Shown: positions 51,364 through 60,153, counted from the stretch's first letter. The stretch: DNA of 64,000 nucleotides from Myxococcota bacterium (GCA_023150875.1 JAKLKC010000001.1:1-64000), one strand, 5' to 3'. The notes: a model not told the origin generated them from the letters alone. Numbers and translations are program-made.

Positions 51364-53817
51364 ATGGGTCGCCCGTCGGGCCTCGCCCTGCCTCTTGTCG
51401 CCGCTCTCGCCGCCGTCTTCTTGCCCACCCCCGCCCTGGGGGTGACGTCCGGGGAGCTCATCGAGCTCCACGACCGCATCGCCGACCGGAAGGTCGACGC
51501 CACCCGGCGGGCCGACGCCGCGGGCCGCTCCCTGTCCCGCCCGGGCCTCGAGGCGACCTTCGCCTCGGGCGAGTTCCACCCCGTCGTGCGGGGGGACGGC
51601 CGCGTCGTGGGCCTGGTCTTCCGGGGCGAGGGCGCCGTGACCCTCTCCGCGCCCGATCCGGTGGAGGCGGCCTCCCTGGCCCGCACCCTGCGGGGCGACC
51701 CCGGCCCCCGCCGGTTCGGCCAGGCGTGGATGCTCTTCACCGACGACACCCTGGACACCCTGGTGCCCCCCGAGCCGGGTTGGACCCCGGCCCCGGAGGG
51801 CGCCCCGGCGGCGGTGGCGCTCCACCAGGCCCGCCACGCCCTGCTGATGGACCCGCGGTGGGAGAAGTGGACGCCGGCCCTGGAGCTGGACGTGCTGGAG
51901 GACCTCTTCGGCTCGGGCTTCGTCGGCGGCCACGTCCTGGTGGAGCTGGACGTGGAGGGGGCCGGCTGGGTCGGGTACCTCCACAACCCGCGGGGGGCGC
52001 TGGAACCCGGCAGGAACACGTCGGTCTTCACCCACGCCTCCCGGGCATCGGCGCCCCACGTCGTCCACCTGGCGGCGAGCTTCGACGCCCCCGGGACCGA
52101 GCCCCCGCCCGCGCCCACCTGGGACATGATCTCCGTCGACGTGGACCTCACCGCCCGCGCCAAGGGGATGGACCGCGACCTGTCGAAGGTGGCGCTGAAG
52201 GTCGAGCAGCGGTTCACCAACACCGCCGAGACGCCGGTGCGGGCCCTGACCCTGGAGCTCGGGGACGGCGTGCGGCGCTGCGTGGGGGACGAGGACTTCG
52301 GCCGCCTGAAGTTGTCACGGATCCGGGACTACGCCGACAAGGAGCCCGCGACCCTCCACCGCCGCGGCCGCCTCTTCGTCGCCCTGAACACCCCGCTGGG
52401 CAAGGACGAGGTCGAGGTGCTCCGCCTGGAGTACGGCGGGCCCCTCGTACAGCCCGTGAAGGACTCCGGCGCCGGCTCCAACGCCCGGTTCACCCCGTTG
52501 CAGGGCTGGGCCTGGTACCCGCGCCCCCTCCGCTCGGACCGGCACCAGTTCGCCGTCACCTTCCACACCGACCGCTTCGTGCGGGGGGTCGCCACCGGCG
52601 ACCTGGTCTCCGACGTGGAAGACCCCGTGGCCAAGGGGAGGACCATGCGCTACGAGGAGAAGGGAGGCGTGCTCTCCGGCGCGGCGATGGTGGGGGAGTA
52701 CGTCGTCTTCGAGAGCGATCCCGCCGAGGGGCACCCCCGGATCCGCCTCTTCACCCTCGACTCCAACCGCCAGATCGCCCGCCAAGTCCTCGAGGACCAG
52801 CGGCGCGTGGTCCGGTTCATGGAGACGCTCTGGGGCCGTTTCCCTTACTCCTCGCTGAACATGGTGGACCTGCTGCCCATGCCGTCGGGCAACTGGAACT
52901 ACGATCCCCGGGTCAACATGACCGGCGCCACCGAGGCGGGGTGGACCTGCCCTCCCCCCGGGGACCTGTGGCCCTGGGAGGGCTTCGCCGAGTCGTCCAC
53001 GGGCTGCCTCTCCATCCACCTGCCCACCACCGCGCCGTCCACCGACCGGATCCAGGCGAACACCCTCAACCAGCTCTGGACCCAGAACCCCAACGCGCTG
53101 CTGATGTACCAGGCCGCCCGCACCGCCCGCCAGTGGTGGGGGCAGATGGTGGGCCCCGCCCGCCCGGAGGACGCTTGGCTGGTGGAGGGCATCGCGAGCT
53201 GGTCGGCGGCGCTGATGCTCCACCGGGCCAAGGGTGACTCCGCCTTCGAGTCCCGGGTGAAGCTCTGGCACGACTACGCCCGGGGCGGGAGCGATCAGGG
53301 CCCCCTCGCCCTGGGCTCGCGCCTGGGCCCGGCCTTCCCCGATCTGGGCTGGGGGAAGGGACCGGCGGTGATCTCCATGCTGGCGGAGCGGGTGGGTTCG
53401 GGCTTCCTGGTGCACACCCTCCAAGGGATCCTCAACCGCCCCCCCGCGGGGGGGCTCTCCACCGAGGCCATGCGGAAGGCCCTGGAGGGGACCGAGGCGG
53501 GAAGCCTGGAGCCCTTCTTCGACTTCTGGGTGCGGGGGACCGAGCTGCCCTCCCTGACCTGGTCCCTGGACGTGAAGCAGGCGGGGGACGCCTTCGAGGT
53601 TTCGGGCAAGGTCCGCAGCGACCCCGCCGCCCCGGGCCTGGTGGTGCCCGTCGCCATCCATCTCTCCCGCAAGAAGGTCCTCTACGAGACGATCACCCTC
53701 GCCGGCCCCGAGACCCCCTTCTCGTTCCCCGGCCTGGAGAGCAAGCCCTCGAAAGTGGAGCTGGACCCGCAGCGCGTCGTGCTCTCCCGGGGACTCTCCC
53801 AGGTGAAGGCGGAATGA
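51364..53817 (+). CDS. M1-family peptidase homologue lacking the zinc site (pseudo-peptidase)
   Basis: An 817-residue exported protein with a Sec signal (1-26). Residues 250-700 resemble M1 aminopeptidases: a beta-rich N-domain, WAWYPRPLRSDRHQFAVTF, a GRFPYSSLNMVDLL stretch, and then the catalytic region. There the HExxH-QWWG signature reads A585-R-T-A-R589-QWWG, so both His ligands and the catalytic Glu are lost. The third ligand position Glu608 in WLVEGIASW remains at the exact 18-residue spacing. The protein is therefore probably non-catalytic, perhaps a substrate-binding or scaffold protein. GGAGGAG precedes the ATG, and its stop overlaps the next start as ATGA. Confidence 0.82.
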   Translation: MGRPSGLALPLVAALAAVFLPTPALGVTSGELIELHDRIADRKVDATRRADAAGRSLSRPGLEATFASGEFHPVVRGDGRVVGLVFRGEGAVTLSAPDPVEAASLARTLRGDPGPRRFGQAWMLFTDDTLDTLVPPEPGWTPAPEGAPAAVALHQARHALLMDPRWEKWTPALELDVLEDLFGSGFVGGHVLVELDVEGAGWVGYLHNPRGALEPGRNTSVFTHASRASAPHVVHLAASFDAPGTEPPPAPTWDMISVDVDLTARAKGMDRDLSKVALKVEQRFTNTAETPVRALTLELGDGVRRCVGDEDFGRLKLSRIRDYADKEPATLHRRGRLFVALNTPLGKDEVEVLRLEYGGPLVQPVKDSGAGSNARFTPLQGWAWYPRPLRSDRHQFAVTFHTDRFVRGVATGDLVSDVEDPVAKGRTMRYEEKGGVLSGAAMVGEYVVFESDPAEGHPRIRLFTLDSNRQIARQVLEDQRRVVRFMETLWGRFPYSSLNMVDLLPMPSGNWNYDPRVNMTGATEAGWTCPPPGDLWPWEGFAESSTGCLSIHLPTTAPSTDRIQANTLNQLWTQNPNALLMYQAARTARQWWGQMVGPARPEDAWLVEGIASWSAALMLHRAKGDSAFESRVKLWHDYARGGSDQGPLALGSRLGPAFPDLGWGKGPAVISMLAERVGSGFLVHTLQGILNRPPAGGLSTEAMRKALEGTEAGSLEPFFDFWVRGTELPSLTWSLDVKQAGDAFEVSGKVRSDPAAPGLVVPVAIHLSRKKVLYETITLAGPETPFSFPGLESKPSKVELDPQRVVLSRGLSQVKAE

Positions 53818-56405
53818 CCCTGGTCCAGGAACCGAAGCCGATGGCAGGGGGCGGCCCGCGCTCCACCCGCGGCGCCGTGACCGCGGGCCTCCTGGGCCTG
53901 CTCGCCGCCGTCCTCGCGCCCGGGCACGCCGGTGCCGACGGCGTCGGCACCGAGGAGTGGTTCGGTCCCACCCGCGTCGGGGCCCAGGCCGGGAACGGAG
54001 GCCTGACGGTGGGGATCGCCGCCACCGGCGAGCTGACGGTGCTGGGCTGGCCGTCCCCTTCCTACGCCGACCAGCTCGACTACCTCACCGCCCTCACTCC
54101 CGACGCCCGGGACCTGCCCTACTTCGGCGCCCGCCCCAACCAGGGCGCCTTCGCGGGGCTGGCGATCTGGACCTCCGAGGGTTTCGCCGGGACCTCGTGG
54201 ACCCGGGACGCCCCGTGGGAGACCTCCCAGTCCTACCGGTCCCAGGACGGCGGGGTCGTGCTCACCCGGTCGGTCCGGGAGGACCTTGGCCTCGTGGTGG
54301 AGCAGAGCGACGGGGTGCTCCCGGACGCCGACGTGCTCGTCCGGCGCTTCGAGGTGCGGCGGAGCGAGGGATCCCCCGTAGTGGCGGTGCGCCTGCTGCA
54401 CTACGCCAACTTCGCCCCCACCCTGGACCACACCGAGCGCTACCCCACCGACGACTGGCTGGACGACGGCCTCAACGACTTCGGGCTCGTCTGGGACCCG
54501 TCCGCCGAGGCGTTCCTCGCCTTCCGCCCCGAGGGAGAGGACCCGGACGTCTCCCTGCTGGACCCCCTGGTCGGCCCGGCCTTCTCCACCCCCGAGGAGC
54601 AGGCGGACGCCGTCGCCGCCGCCTGGGAGGGGGTCGCGGACGCGGTGGGGGGCGGCGTCTGGATCGCGCTGGGCGGAGCCTCCGCCCCGGACCAGGTGCA
54701 GGCGGGGGCCGACGCCGACCAGGGCTGCCGCTGGACGACGGAGTGGGGGACGCGGCCTGAGGACGCCTTCGCCGACGCCGCCGACGGAGAGCTCTCCGGC
54801 TGGATCGCGGCGGGCTGCCAGGCGAACGGCGCCATGGGCTGGTTCCACTCCTTCGGGGCGTCCGGCGGGGACGCCGCCGTCTTCGACGTGCTCCTGGCCG
54901 CCGCCGGCGATCGGGACGCCGCACTGGCCGCCCTGGACGGCGCCCGGGACCGGGAGGCCGGGGAACTGCTGGACGAGGTCGACGCCCACTGGGGCGGGGT
55001 GGTGGCGGGAGCCCGGCTGCCGGCCGCCACCCCCGAGGTGCTGGCCTTCGCCCAGCGCTGGCTGGTCTCGGTGCTCCAGGGCACCGACCGGTCCTCGGCC
55101 ATCGTCGCCGCCATCACCACCCAGCCCCCGTACCGGCAGGACTGGCCCCGGGACGCGACCTTCATCGACCTCGCCCTGGACATCGCCGGGTTCGAGGAGG
55201 AGGTGACCCGCCACAAGCTCTGGCTCTCCTCCCTCCAGGCCCGCCAGGACATCGTGGACGAGGTGGGCAACGTCACGCCCCGGGGGGCCTGGGCGATGAA
55301 CTACTACGCGGACGGGCGGATCGGCGGCCCCATCCCCTTCGAGATCGACCAGACGGCCCTGTACACCTGGGGGCTGTGGGACCACGGGAAGCGGATCCCC
55401 TCCGCGGCCCGGCGCCGGGAGTACCTGCTGGCGGTGGACGACGCGGTGATCCTCGCCGCGGACCTGCTCTCCACCTGCGTCGAGGACGATTACCCCTACC
55501 CCCCCGCCTCGGGCCAGGACGTGGGCGCGACCCTCCGGGGGCTGGTGGAGGGGGGGGCCGATCCCGGCGAGGAGGAGGCCCGCTCCCAGGCCCTCGCCGC
55601 GGGGGAGTGGGAGCGGTTCCTGCCCTGCTTCGCCAACGAGGACGACGACCCTGCCCAGACCCGCTCCCTCTACGGCGCCCACACCGTGCGGGCCGGGCTC
55701 CTGGCGGCGGCGGCGATGCTGGAGGACATGGGCCAGGCCCCGGCGCGGGTCGCATGGTACCGCGAGAGGGCCGAGGAGCTCGCCCAGGCCCTCGCCGGAA
55801 TGTACTGGGATGAGGCATCCGGAGGCTGGGAGGGGCGCGCGGACTGGATGCTCTGGCCCCACCCTCCCCTTCCCCTGGACGATCCTCGAATGACCGCCCT
55901 CGCGGGCGCGCTGCTGGCGGAGGCCCAGGACGACCTCTCCCTCCGGACCGAGGGCGGTTCCTACGTACAGAAGAAGGTCCTCACCCTCGCCCGGGCCTGG
56001 GCCGCGGAGGAGGACCGCCGCGCCCAGGACCTCGCCCCCCTGGTGGACGTGCTGGTCCGGGACCTCCCCACGGAGGGGACCCTCCATGTGGGGGAGGTCT
56101 GGTGCTCCCTCGACACCGACGGGGACGGCGCCTACGACGCCTTCGACAACCGCGTCGCGGTGCCCCACCTGTGGACGGCCTCGCTCATCGCCCTCGGCGC
56201 GTGGGCGGTCCACGAGCCCGAGGTCTTCGACGCCTACGAGGGAGACTCGGGCTGGTGGGACGCCGGGGAAGGCGGCACGGTGAGCATCGTGCGCGAGAGC
56301 GTCGGTTGCGGATGCGCGTCGGGGGGGCCGTCCCCCCACGGGGCGGCCGTCGGAGCGCTGGTCCTGCTCGGCGGGATCGCCGGGCGGAGGGGGCGCCGGA
56401 GTTGA
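53814..56405 (+). CDS. Secreted GH15-like (alpha/alpha)6-barrel protein with sorting-type tail
   Basis: An 863-residue exported protein. The signal peptide ends near AGADG (about residue 42). Residues 45-330 form a beta-rich N-domain. The helical barrel (400-830) has QPPYRQDWPRDATFIDLAL, typical of GH15 glucoamylase-like and related toroid enzymes, later IPFEIDQTALYTWGLW and AHTVRAGLLAAAAMLEDMG. Whether it hydrolyses a glycan is open, since the catalytic Glu pair cannot be placed securely. The C-terminus is VGCGCASGG, a hydrophobic helix and GRRGRRS, like MYXO-CTERM signals. It overlaps both neighbours by four bases (ATGA, TTGA). Confidence 0.75.
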   Translation: MTLVQEPKPMAGGGPRSTRGAVTAGLLGLLAAVLAPGHAGADGVGTEEWFGPTRVGAQAGNGGLTVGIAATGELTVLGWPSPSYADQLDYLTALTPDARDLPYFGARPNQGAFAGLAIWTSEGFAGTSWTRDAPWETSQSYRSQDGGVVLTRSVREDLGLVVEQSDGVLPDADVLVRRFEVRRSEGSPVVAVRLLHYANFAPTLDHTERYPTDDWLDDGLNDFGLVWDPSAEAFLAFRPEGEDPDVSLLDPLVGPAFSTPEEQADAVAAAWEGVADAVGGGVWIALGGASAPDQVQAGADADQGCRWTTEWGTRPEDAFADAADGELSGWIAAGCQANGAMGWFHSFGASGGDAAVFDVLLAAAGDRDAALAALDGARDREAGELLDEVDAHWGGVVAGARLPAATPEVLAFAQRWLVSVLQGTDRSSAIVAAITTQPPYRQDWPRDATFIDLALDIAGFEEEVTRHKLWLSSLQARQDIVDEVGNVTPRGAWAMNYYADGRIGGPIPFEIDQTALYTWGLWDHGKRIPSAARRREYLLAVDDAVILAADLLSTCVEDDYPYPPASGQDVGATLRGLVEGGADPGEEEARSQALAAGEWERFLPCFANEDDDPAQTRSLYGAHTVRAGLLAAAAMLEDMGQAPARVAWYRERAEELAQALAGMYWDEASGGWEGRADWMLWPHPPLPLDDPRMTALAGALLAEAQDDLSLRTEGGSYVQKKVLTLARAWAAEEDRRAQDLAPLVDVLVRDLPTEGTLHVGEVWCSLDTDGDGAYDAFDNRVAVPHLWTASLIALGAWAVHEPEVFDAYEGDSGWWDAGEGGTVSIVRESVGCGCASGGPSPHGAAVGALVLLGGIAGRRGRRS

Positions 56406-58036
56406 TCCGCGGGCTGCCGGTCCTGGGTCTCTCCGCCCTGCTGGCGGTGGCCGCGTGCCGCGGCGGGGAGGAGGCACCCCGGCCGGTCGAGCCCGCCCGG
56501 CCCTCGACCTCCCCCGCCGACGCCCGGCGACCCCAGGGCCTGCCCTCCGGAGTGGTGGTGGTGGCCGCGCTGGACCGCGCGGCCCTGCCCTACGCGAGCT
56601 GGTGGGTCGACTTCGCCCGCCCCGACGCGCCGGCCCGCGTCGCTCTGGCCCCAGGGATCCTGGCTTACGACGGCTCCGATCTCCGACACGTCGCCCTCCC
56701 GACCGCCGTCCCCGAGGGGGAGCCCCCCGGGGAGGACGTCGTGGTGTCCGACGTGCGCACGGGGCGCCGGAGCGTGCTCGTCCGGGCGGGGGCGGGGACG
56801 GCCTCGGATCCCCGGGCGTCGGTGTTCTCGGTGGTGGGCTCCGCCGTCTCCTTGGAGTTCGGGGGCCGTGACGAGACCCCGGGCGGGGAGGTCCGGGAGT
56901 CCCGGAGGTTCGGGACCTGGCTGGATGGCAAGCCCGCCTCCCTGGCGGACCTGGTACCCGGGCCCGAGGCCGCTTCCCTGGTGGCGCGCGCGCGGGACGC
57001 CCTCGATCCCGGGGGCGCCGGTCCCGCCGCCGGCTCCTCCACCTGCGGATCCTTCGACCCCGACTCCTTCGCCCTCCGGCCCCGGCGGAACGACCTGGAG
57101 GTGGTGTTCACCCCCGCCCGATCCGGCGCTCCCCCTTGCCCCGACAAGGCACTCGAGGTGGCGTTCCCGCTGCCGAAGTCCCTCTCCCCCCTCCTCGGCA
57201 CCCTCTCCTTCCGGCTCCCCGGCCCCCCTCCTCCGCCCGCCGCCGAGGCGGCCGACTTCCACTTCCACGTCGGCCCCGACGCCGGCTTCCTCTTGCGCCT
57301 CCGGGACGGGGCCCTGGACCTCGCCGGCCCCGACCGCGACACCCGCCGGCTGGCTTCGGGGGTCGCCCGGATCGTGTCGGTGCAGTGGGTCAAGGGGGAG
57401 CCTCCCCGGGACCTGGCGCCCCACGTAGAGGCCCGCTTCTCGCCCCTGGGCGACCTCCGGGCCACCGTGGGCCCCGAAGTGGTGGTCGACGGGTTCGCCA
57501 CGGAGTGGGACCAGGGACAGCCCTTCCCCGTGGAGACCGCCGGGCACCTGATCGCGGGGAGGGACGCCTGGTCGGGGCCCGCGGACCTGTCGTTCTTCGT
57601 CAAGGCGAGGGTGGCCGGAGGGCGCCTCGGCCTGTTCGCACGGGTGCGGGACGAGGACGCGCGCCTCGCCGGGCCGGGACCGCGGGAGCGGGTCGCGGTC
57701 TGGTTCCGGAGCGGAGCCGACCTCACCGGTCTCGAGCTCGACCCCCGGGAGGGACGGCCCGCCGCCATCACCCGCGCCTGGCCTCCTGGGGGGGAAGGTG
57801 CCCACGGACAGGCCGTCCGCGACGCCCGCGCCTCCTTCCGCGAAGTCGAGGACGGCTGGCTCCTGGAGTTCTCCATCCCCCTCTCCGCCCTGGGCGACAC
57901 CGATGGGCGCGTCCCCCTCGGCCTCGCCGTGACGGACGCCGACGGGAGCGGCACCCCCGGCGCCACCCTGGCGACCTCCCCGGTGATCCCGGGCGAAGTG
58001 GCCACCCTCGGAGAGCTACGGCTGCCCGGGTCCTGA
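56402..58036 (+). CDS. Lipoprotein with C-terminal CBM9-like domain
   Basis: A 544-residue lipoprotein; the TTG start overlaps the previous TGA as TTGA. The signal ends in LLAVAAC (Cys19). Residues 50-350 are beta-rich and unrecognised, with Cys-containing STCGSFDPDSF. Residues 355-544 resemble family 9 carbohydrate-binding (CBM9/DOMON-like) modules: VVDGFATEWDQGQP, LSFFVKARVAGGRLGLFARVRDED in parts, and WLLEFSIPLSALG then LGLAVTDADGSGTPG. It probably binds sugar or haem at the outer membrane as part of the coupled module. Confidence 0.7.
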   Translation: MIRGLPVLGLSALLAVAACRGGEEAPRPVEPARPSTSPADARRPQGLPSGVVVVAALDRAALPYASWWVDFARPDAPARVALAPGILAYDGSDLRHVALPTAVPEGEPPGEDVVVSDVRTGRRSVLVRAGAGTASDPRASVFSVVGSAVSLEFGGRDETPGGEVRESRRFGTWLDGKPASLADLVPGPEAASLVARARDALDPGGAGPAAGSSTCGSFDPDSFALRPRRNDLEVVFTPARSGAPPCPDKALEVAFPLPKSLSPLLGTLSFRLPGPPPPPAAEAADFHFHVGPDAGFLLRLRDGALDLAGPDRDTRRLASGVARIVSVQWVKGEPPRDLAPHVEARFSPLGDLRATVGPEVVVDGFATEWDQGQPFPVETAGHLIAGRDAWSGPADLSFFVKARVAGGRLGLFARVRDEDARLAGPGPRERVAVWFRSGADLTGLELDPREGRPAAITRAWPPGGEGAHGQAVRDARASFREVEDGWLLEFSIPLSALGDTDGRVPLGLAVTDADGSGTPGATLATSPVIPGEVATLGELRLPGS

Positions 58037-58113: not shown

Positions 58114-59358
58114 GTGATCGATCCCCGCTACCGAAAGCGCCGGACGCGGCGCGGCTCGCCCTCGCTCGCGCTGGCCTGCTCGGCCCTGCTCCACCTGCTC
58201 GTGGTCGCCGGGCTGGCCCTCCGGCCCACGCCGCCCCGGGCCACCCCCGAGGCCGAGCCGGTGATGGCCGTCGAGTACTACCCCGACGTCGCCTCCATCC
58301 CGGGCGCCCACCTGCTGGAGCCCCGAGACTTCGTGGTGCCCCTCGCTCCGACCCCCGAGGAGGAGGTCGCCGAGGAGGCGGACCCCGAGCACAAGGCCCC
58401 CGCCCGCGGCCAGGTGGTGGAGGTGCCGAAGCCCCCCCGGTCCGAGAGGCCCGACGAGGCGGACTACCTGGCCGAGCACGACTCCAAGGTCGAGCAGGAG
58501 ATGGCCAGCGAGAAGTTCCGGCTGAACTCGCCGGTCCTCTCCCAGCGGTACTCCCCCACCGACGCCCCGGGGATCGAGGGCACCGGCCGCGAGGACGTGG
58601 ACAAGCCCGCCGACGGCGCCGACGCCACCGGCGCCGAGCGGATGGCCTCCCGGACCCCCGGGGACGCCGCGTCTCCGACCCCCTTCCAGGGGCAGCCGGT
58701 CCCCTCCACGGGGGCCGGCCAGGACCGGGACGCCTCCTCCGAGAGGGGGCGGATGTCCTACGTGCCCGATCTCTCCTCGAAGTACGACCTCGGGCGACCC
58801 GAGAGCTCCTCGGGCCACATGGGGCAGCTCGGCGGACCCGGCCCCTCGGGGGCGGAGGGGGGACAGGCGGCGGCCCAGCGGGGCTGGGGCCAGCCCCAGG
58901 GCTCGCCGAGCAACGACTACCTGAAGGACGAGGCGAAGGGGGACTCCACCACCCTCAACACCCACGAGTTCCGGTACGCCGCGTTCCTCAACCGGGTCAA
59001 GCGGCTCGTGAGCTTCTACGCCGACCAGACCCTCAACAACGCCGTGCCCCGCCAGGCCCCGAACAAGGCGAGCTACGACGTCGTGATGCACGCGATGCTG
59101 AACAAGGAGGGCCGCCTGGAGGCGATCCGGGTGGTGGAGTCCTCGGGGATCCCCGAGTTCGACGAGGCGCTGGCCCAGGCGTTCCGCCTCGCGGCGCCCT
59201 TCCCCAACCCTCCGGCCGGCATGGTGGAGTCCGACGGCTCCGTGCACATCCGGGACTTCGGCTTCCACATCGAGATCGGCCGGGCCCGCGCCCAGATGAA
59301 CGGCATCGATCCCCGCCAGGGGGTGATGTTCCCGGGCCTCCAGACGTCGCCGCGCTGA
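58114..59358 (+). CDS. TonB-family energy transducer-like protein
   Basis: A 414-residue protein with one N-terminal membrane helix (about 17-36), a long Pro/Glu/Gly-rich periplasmic linker (37-290) and a C-terminal TonB-type domain (300-400): RYAAFLNRVKRLVSFYADQ, KASYDVVMHAMLNKEGRLEA and VVESSGIPEFDEALAQAFRLAAPFPNPP. Such proteins transmit inner-membrane proton-motive force to outer-membrane receptors, usually with ExbB/ExbD, which are not in the window. Its place after the envelope module suggests it might energise transport or secretion linked to it, but it has its own promoter-like element. Confidence 0.82.
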   Translation: MIDPRYRKRRTRRGSPSLALACSALLHLLVVAGLALRPTPPRATPEAEPVMAVEYYPDVASIPGAHLLEPRDFVVPLAPTPEEEVAEEADPEHKAPARGQVVEVPKPPRSERPDEADYLAEHDSKVEQEMASEKFRLNSPVLSQRYSPTDAPGIEGTGREDVDKPADGADATGAERMASRTPGDAASPTPFQGQPVPSTGAGQDRDASSERGRMSYVPDLSSKYDLGRPESSSGHMGQLGGPGPSGAEGGQAAAQRGWGQPQGSPSNDYLKDEAKGDSTTLNTHEFRYAAFLNRVKRLVSFYADQTLNNAVPRQAPNKASYDVVMHAMLNKEGRLEAIRVVESSGIPEFDEALAQAFRLAAPFPNPPAGMVESDGSVHIRDFGFHIEIGRARAQMNGIDPRQGVMFPGLQTSPR

Positions 59359-59370
59359 GGCCCGCCCGCC

Positions 59371-60153
59371 TCAGTCACCGAACTCGGTGCCGTCGGTGGC
59401 CACCATGGCGTCCTGGGCGCCGAGGGCGTGGGCGGCGAGGCGGTTGCCCGGGTCGAGGTGGGCCAGCGACGCGGCGACCTGCCGGCCGCTGGCCAGCGCG
59501 AGGGAGCGCAGGGCCGGATCCGACTCCCCGCGGGCGTCGGCGAGGTAGGTCTCCACCAGCCCCGACTGGACGGCCACCGCGACGTCGATGGCGGACCGGA
59601 ACGCGCCCCGGGCGCTCTCCACCTCGGCGAGCAGGTCGGCGTAGGCGCCCTCGTCGGCGCGGGGGGCCAGGCCCCGGAGGAGGGTCGCGGTCGCCTCGGC
59701 GGCGGGCACGGACCGGACCGCCAGGGAGAGCTGCCAGAGCTCGTCGTCCCGGGGGTTGACGGGGACCGGCGTGGCGCGGAAGGCGGCGAGGTAGTCGTCG
59801 AGCCGCTCCACCAGGTCCGACTGGTGCTCGGCCTGACCGACGAGGTTGGCCAGGCGCGCCACCACCGCGGTCACGCGGGGATCTCCGCCGGAGACGGCAC
59901 CCCCCTGGATCAGGGCCGTCAGGCGGGTGACGGCGGCGTGGACGCGCTGCCGGGCCAGCCAGGGCTGGGCGCGGGACAGCTCGACCTCGACCCGATCCGC
60001 CTCGGCCTCGATCTGGGGGAGGACCCGGGCGGCCACACCCGACGAGGTCGCCGGCGCGGGATCGCGGGGGGACTCCCCCCGGGCGGCGGCCAACGAGGGG
60101 GAGGAGACGAGGAGGGCGAGGACGACCGCCCACCGGTGGCTCAGGCGAGTCAC
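59371..60153 (-). CDS. Secreted helical protein of unknown function
   Basis: A 260-residue protein with a Sec signal (1-24, cleavage near LAAARG). The mature protein is almost wholly alpha-helical and Ala/Leu-rich, for example VLPQIEAEADRVEVELSRA, HAAVTRLTALIQGG and DLVERLDDYLAAFRATPVPV. No motif was recognised. The acidic end reads VATDGTEFGD. It lies between the tonB-like gene (convergent, 12 bp apart) and the glycine-cleavage operon (same strand, 83 bp from gcvP), so it may be read through from gcvP. Confidence 0.6.
   Translation of the reverse strand: MTRLSHRWAVVLALLVSSPSLAAARGESPRDPAPATSSGVAARVLPQIEAEADRVEVELSRAQPWLARQRVHAAVTRLTALIQGGAVSGGDPRVTAVVARLANLVGQAEHQSDLVERLDDYLAAFRATPVPVNPRDDELWQLSLAVRSVPAAEATATLLRGLAPRADEGAYADLLAEVESARGAFRSAIDVAVAVQSGLVETYLADARGESDPALRSLALASGRQVAASLAHLDPGNRLAAHALGAQDAMVATDGTEFGD

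Follow-up and report, generated by a model that had tools for sequence, protein, structure and literature searches.

The stretch of DNA analyzed here, a 64,000-nucleotide window from a Myxococcota bacterium (GCA_023150875.1 JAKLKC010000001.1:1-64000), carries a run of four genes in the same orientation, which we refer to as A to D. They encode an exported protein with a predicted M1 peptidase fold (A), a protein resembling the glycoside hydrolases of family 15 (GH15; B), a lipoprotein (C) and a protein of the TonB/TolA type (D), followed by gcvP and gcvH on the opposite strand and then by gcvT and folD. The sequence ATGA at 53814-53817 is common to A and B, giving a 4-nucleotide overlap, TTGA at 56402-56405 is common to B and C, and a gap of 77 nucleotides separates C from D. 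An earlier, sequence-only reading had described A, B and C as three overlapping genes, and both the open reading frames and the overlaps are indeed present. It had also given D a promoter of its own, which our analysis does not support: a scan for sigma-70-like promoters, which covers that type only and is weak in GC-rich DNA, returned none for D, and in the relatives measured D starts 34-123 nucleotides past the end of A or B. A hairpin between C and D was rejected as a terminator, scoring no better than shuffled sequence (z -0.57).

Comparison with six genomes of the same order (G001-G006) points to A-(B)-D, rather than to the trio A-B-C, as the recurring unit. In each of the five genomes where A was found (G001-G005), it is accompanied by D, with B between them in four; in G002, B is missing and A lies directly next to D. 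The 4-nucleotide overlap of A and B is kept in G001, G003 and G004, at a protein identity of about 40%, and a 34-nucleotide gap takes its place in G005. Conservation between the window and its relatives stops at A: the genes beyond it, on the side away from B, are not shared, and the block therefore ends there sharply. Together, the conserved overlap and this sharp boundary indicate at least a coupling of A and B. The proposal that A, B and C would be syntenic holds for the first two genes and not for the third, C being missing in the six genomes; D, which had been set apart from the trio, itself proves to be syntenic.

Table 1. Genes and sequence features of the A-D locus; positions are counted from the first nucleotide of the window
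Feature	Position	Strand	Remarks
Gene A	51364..53817	+	predicted secreted M1-fold pseudoenzyme, 817 amino acids, signal peptide
Former zinc motif HExxH of A	53116..53130	+	ARTAR, residues 585-589, then QWWG
E608 of A, third zinc ligand position	53185..53187	+	Glu kept in 6/6 orthologues
W663 of A, M1 catalytic Tyr position	53350..53352	+	Trp in 6/6 orthologues
Gene B	53814..56405	+	GH15-like, 863 amino acids, N-terminal beta-sandwich and alpha/alpha barrel
WPRD of B, GH15 subsite -1 motif	55143..55154	+	residues 444-447; role from PMC12446779 and family knowledge
E609 of B, predicted general acid	55638..55640	+	20/20 family members
E761 of B, predicted general base	56094..56096	+	19/20 family members (Ala in G001)
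MYXO-CTERM-like sorting tail of B	56304..56399	+	GCGC motif, hydrophobic stretch, Arg-rich end
Gene C	56402..58036	+	lipoprotein, 544 amino acids, TTG start
Lipobox-like VAAC of C	56447..56458	+	residues 16-19
CBM9-like domain of C	57479..58021	+	residues about 360-540
Gene D	58114..59358	+	TonB/TolA-like protein, 414 amino acids, GTG start
TonB_2 domain of D	59032..59220	+	residues 307-369

As a single sequence, A matches the Pfam family Peptidase_M1 weakly and under its cut-off (E 6.8e-5). A profile of six A orthologues (the window and G001-G005) matches M1 structures at E 3e-9, pointing to an M1 fold with homology over the catalytic domain. The zinc-binding histidines are gone in all six, the motif reading ARTARQWWG in the window and xDLxRQWWG or near variants in the others. 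In contrast, the closest paralogues of A, found in this genome (G000) and in G002, G004, G005 and G006, retain both HE[ILV]xHQWWG and the catalytic Tyr. The GAMEN exopeptidase motif is absent in A and likewise in these HExxH-bearing paralogues. In a tree of the M1 region the six A proteins form one group with a support of 0.996, and distant homologues of A in two Acidobacteriota genomes still harbor the zinc motif. Since all six orthologues have lost the catalytic residues alike, beside paralogues in these genomes that retain them, the inactivation is likely ancestral and maintained. The persistence of A as an intact open reading frame at about 30-58% identity among relatives agrees with such maintenance. 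Loss of catalysis thus appears to be a clade-wide property of A, and an active M1 peptidase was rejected because HExxH and the catalytic Tyr are both gone.

The similarity of A to M1 metallopeptidases (PF01433; e.g. 6a8z, puromycin-sensitive aminopeptidase) extends over the profile of the catalytic domain and includes QWWG and WxxE, and the A group differs from them in having neither HExxH nor the catalytic Tyr. In this respect A resembles TAF2, an inactive M1 relative, as an M1-fold protein minus its catalytic site. Unlike TAF2 and related proteins, A is bacterial and exported and carries about 250 residues of uncharacterised N-terminal sequence. Other M1-like proteins without HExxH exist in the class (L166, L163, L174, L167, L168), and A is therefore not the sole such case. 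Three of these (L174, L167, L168) form a further group from other families of the class, apparently outside the A clade in the tree. In L163 (G004:C496, 397-14197), the genes of an oligopeptide ABC transporter (SBP_bac_5, two permeases, two ATPases) share a single run with those of two M1-type proteins, one intact and the other lacking HExxH, and in L166 (G001) a similar HExxH-less protein adjoins an ATPase-like gene. Pseudo-M1 proteins may recur as partners that bind peptides.

The product of B falls below the Pfam GH15 cut-off, and the GH15 model TIGR01577 matches all 20 B family members used. A search of the PDB by sequence gave chance matches only, and a fold search was therefore used. AlphaFold2 modeled B confidently (pLDDT 84, pTM 0.85), and the solved structures that match this model best are dextran dextrinase, glucodextranase (1ug9, E 3.9e-18) and bacterial glucoamylase (1lf6, E 9.7e-16), all of them GH15 enzymes. 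In the model, B adopts the alpha/alpha barrel and beta-sandwich typical of these enzymes. Alignment of the B family to one canonical GH15 (L230) with hhalign was weak and local (E 4.6e-4), so that the assignment of the catalytic glutamates rests on motif and conservation. E609 lies in ANEDD and E761 in HVGEV, a placement that fits the general acid and base of GH15 as described (PMC12446779). B is thus predicted to be a GH15 protein with both catalytic glutamates, capable of alpha-glucoside hydrolysis. With the solved GH15 structures (1ug9, 1lf6, 9ju0) it shares beta-sandwich, barrel, WPRD and the two glutamates. It departs from them in sequence, with only 9-15% identity in the fold alignments, in the long insertion that B members of the order carry ahead of the acid Glu, and in the added MYXO-CTERM-like tail. 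This tail scores 16.3 bits against the MYXO-CTERM model, whose cut-off is 20, and 11 of the 20 family members match the model at E 0.01; MYXO-CTERM has been shown to act as a tag for cell-surface sorting (PMC11980579). Such tails in B and its family by themselves point to Myxococcota as the probable phylum.

The B orthologue of G001 (L036 11260-13773) has kept its place and its sorting tail, with E761 changed to Ala and WPRD lost, and is likely a natural GH15 pseudoenzyme. Between G001 and G004, A is 57.9% and D 69.4% identical, as compared with 38.6% for B; between G003 and G004 the identities are 49.7% (A), 56.6% (D) and 49.5% (B). By these values, B of G001 has diverged faster than its neighbors A and D. 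A search of the G002 genome returned no match to B. With B lost in G002 and dead in G001, the system cannot have glycan cleavage as its invariant core.

C begins with a signal peptide and a lipobox-like AVAAC. Its C-terminal domain is modeled with the fold of CBM9 (7nwn/1i82, E 1.6e-8, TM-score 0.70 by target), and the model is poor across residues about 100 to 284. Unlike CBM9 proper, this domain would sit on a lipoprotein rather than on a xylanase and shows no sequence match at the Pfam level; scans of C against Pfam and NCBIfam, and of its relatives against Pfam, returned none. No homologue of C was found at E 0.001 in the six same-order genomes, and its membership in a conserved system was rejected on this ground. 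Relatives that have the conserved C-terminal domain in common with C occur in other families of the class, most of them at E 6e-17 to about 1e-8. In six of the loci examined (L196, L198, L199, L203, L205, L206) the relative belongs to the run TonB-ExbB-ExbD-ExbD-globin-like-AhpC/TSA-like-C, the globin-like label being given by inspection alone; other relatives lie beside different genes. The same six loci hold UbiA-like and kinase-like genes on the opposite strand. This genome has its TonB-ExbB-ExbD-ExbD set on another contig, without C. The vicinity of C to TonB genes in two arrangements is at most suggestive, and C itself is best explained, from its distribution, as a lineage-specific insertion into the A-B-D block.

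Taken one by one, the protein assignments of the sequence-only reading agree well with these data: a secreted M1-like protein minus its zinc site (ARTAR for HExxH, Trp for Tyr), a GH15-like protein (TIGR01577 and the fold matches), for which the presence of the active-site Glu pair had been named as a check, and a CBM9-like lipoprotein (lipobox-like motif and fold). For the Cys/Gly sorting tail ascribed to B, GCGC, hydrophobic stretch and Arg end are all there, and the MYXO-CTERM score is sub-threshold.

D matches the Pfam domain TonB_2 at E 5.3e-8 and displays both the C-terminal TonB domain and the N-terminal transmembrane segment that characterize TonB transducers. With TonB, TolA and HasB (PF13103, PF03544) it shares this segment, an acidic, Pro/Glu-rich linker and the C-terminal TonB fold; it differs from them in an additional invariant C-terminal tail, GIDPRxxVxFPGLxT, and in the lack of ExbB/D or a receptor beside it. 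Elsewhere in this genome there are eight ExbD and six TonB-dependent receptor matches. A search of 379 genomes of the phylum at E 1e-12 finds D in 168, including nearly all genomes of the class. In the class-level loci that were opened and had the upstream gene scanned, D follows another TonB_C protein, a place held by A and B in the order of the window. Such TonB_C tandems are found class-wide (L106, L108, L111, L112, L113, L114), the second member being the D orthologue with the C-terminal tail. The window has a convergent gene of unknown family on the 3' side of D (59371-60153).

A surface GH15, a CBM9 lipoprotein and a TonB protein in a single gene run, in a genome with TonB-dependent receptors elsewhere, would be compatible with uptake in the manner of a starch utilization system (SUS), with B and C capturing and cutting alpha-glucan at the surface and D energizing oligosaccharide import. 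We consider this improbable. SUS loci are recognized by a TonB-dependent receptor together with a SusD-type protein, and neither was found in the gene content between 42 kb and 64 kb or further downstream; receptor, SusD-like protein and transporter are all absent from the locus. Furthermore, C is not conserved, and A and D persist where B is dead (G001) or missing (G002).

A second possibility is that D acts mechanically, passing force from a putative ExbB/D motor as TolA or GltG would, with A as a structural adaptor in the periplasm and the GH15 protein contributing incidental surface remodeling. D resembles TolA and TonB, and the genome contains ExbB-ExbD-ExbD sets resembling AglRQS. In M. 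xanthus, the gliding transducer GltG combines FHA and TonB domains in one protein (PMC3169522), and in three relatives, G001, G004 and G006, an FHA-domain gene lies 3' of D (L036 9471-10061 in G001; also L037 450-1004 and L039 5542-6147). The likeness to AglRQS-Glt lies in a TonB-type protein near an FHA gene in some relatives and in the ExbB-ExbD-ExbD sets of the genome. In contrast to GltG, FHA and TonB domains are on separate genes here, and in the window no FHA gene adjoins D; no glt genes were identified at the locus, and none were specifically looked for. Such a mechanical role likewise appears rather unlikely to us.

The explanation that we favor, tentatively and with less than even confidence, is an envelope operon specific to the order, with A and D as its core, the surface GH15 protein B as an accessory and C as a local addition. 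A would be an exported M1-fold protein, residing in the periplasm or on the outer membrane, whose catalytic activity disappeared in the ancestor of the order and which was retained as a binder or scaffold. D would serve as a TonB/TolA-type transducer across the inner membrane, driven by one of the ExbB/ExbD motors of the genome. B, translationally coupled to A, might act as a surface-anchored exo-alpha-glucosidase that trims terminal alpha-glucosyl residues off a surface or external alpha-glucan, and C, with its CBM9 domain, might bind sugars, having been added only in the lineage of the window. The genes, their coupling, the domain folds, the state of the catalytic residues and the gene order are seen directly in the data, and from them we infer joint action of the products, ligand binding by A, energy transfer by D and the glucan substrate. 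Surface glycan handling, the role proposed earlier from sequence alone, is plausible; glycan cleavage as the core of the system does not stand, with B lost or dead in two of the relatives. A bolder version, to which we give little credence, would be a TonB-powered surface system built around a dead M1-fold receptor and its TonB transducer, with the glucosidase becoming a second pseudoenzyme in some lineages and the M1 scaffold reused as the binding part of an energized envelope machine.

Several observations weigh against the proposed operon. D occurs across the class without A or B, usually adjoining another TonB_C protein. B, matched in 22 of the 379 genomes, is mostly solitary outside the order, with no A or D adjoining it in the loci fetched. 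In G006 the order is B, thioredoxin-like gene, D, and A is missing from their vicinity; no A orthologue was found in this assembly, which is 73% complete. A TonB-dependent receptor, SusD, a sugar transporter and ExbB/D are all missing from the locus. Beyond D, the conserved block also includes gcvP, gcvH, gcvT and folD, which are functionally unrelated to the envelope, so that part of the synteny perhaps reflects slow decay of gene order, and synteny alone is no proof of one system. The genes might therefore be neighbors without a joint function, A and B being a coupled pair and C and D independent envelope genes in a slowly rearranging region. The absence of C from relatives and the occurrence of B and D on their own are also in keeping with mere proximity, which we regard as unlikely on the whole, though a serious contender. 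It is at odds with the abrupt stop of conservation at A, with the 4-nucleotide A/B overlap kept despite the divergence of the proteins and with G002, where A still adjoins D without B.

Each protein of the locus belongs to a known fold family. In the open-licence papers searched we found no description of an order-wide pseudo-M1 group or of its linkage to a TonB-type protein, and no papers on a GH15 protein with MYXO-CTERM or on an inactive M1 protein in Myxococcota. A offers a clean case of what appears to be ancestral and maintained inactivation of a bacterial M1 protein, for which active paralogues within these genomes serve as controls, and gene order ties this inactivated protein to one of the TonB type. 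B defines a Myxococcota-wide GH15 family, apparently surface-sorted, with one member that is by its residues naturally dead. If A and D do cooperate, a pseudopeptidase would join the known partners of TonB-type transducers.

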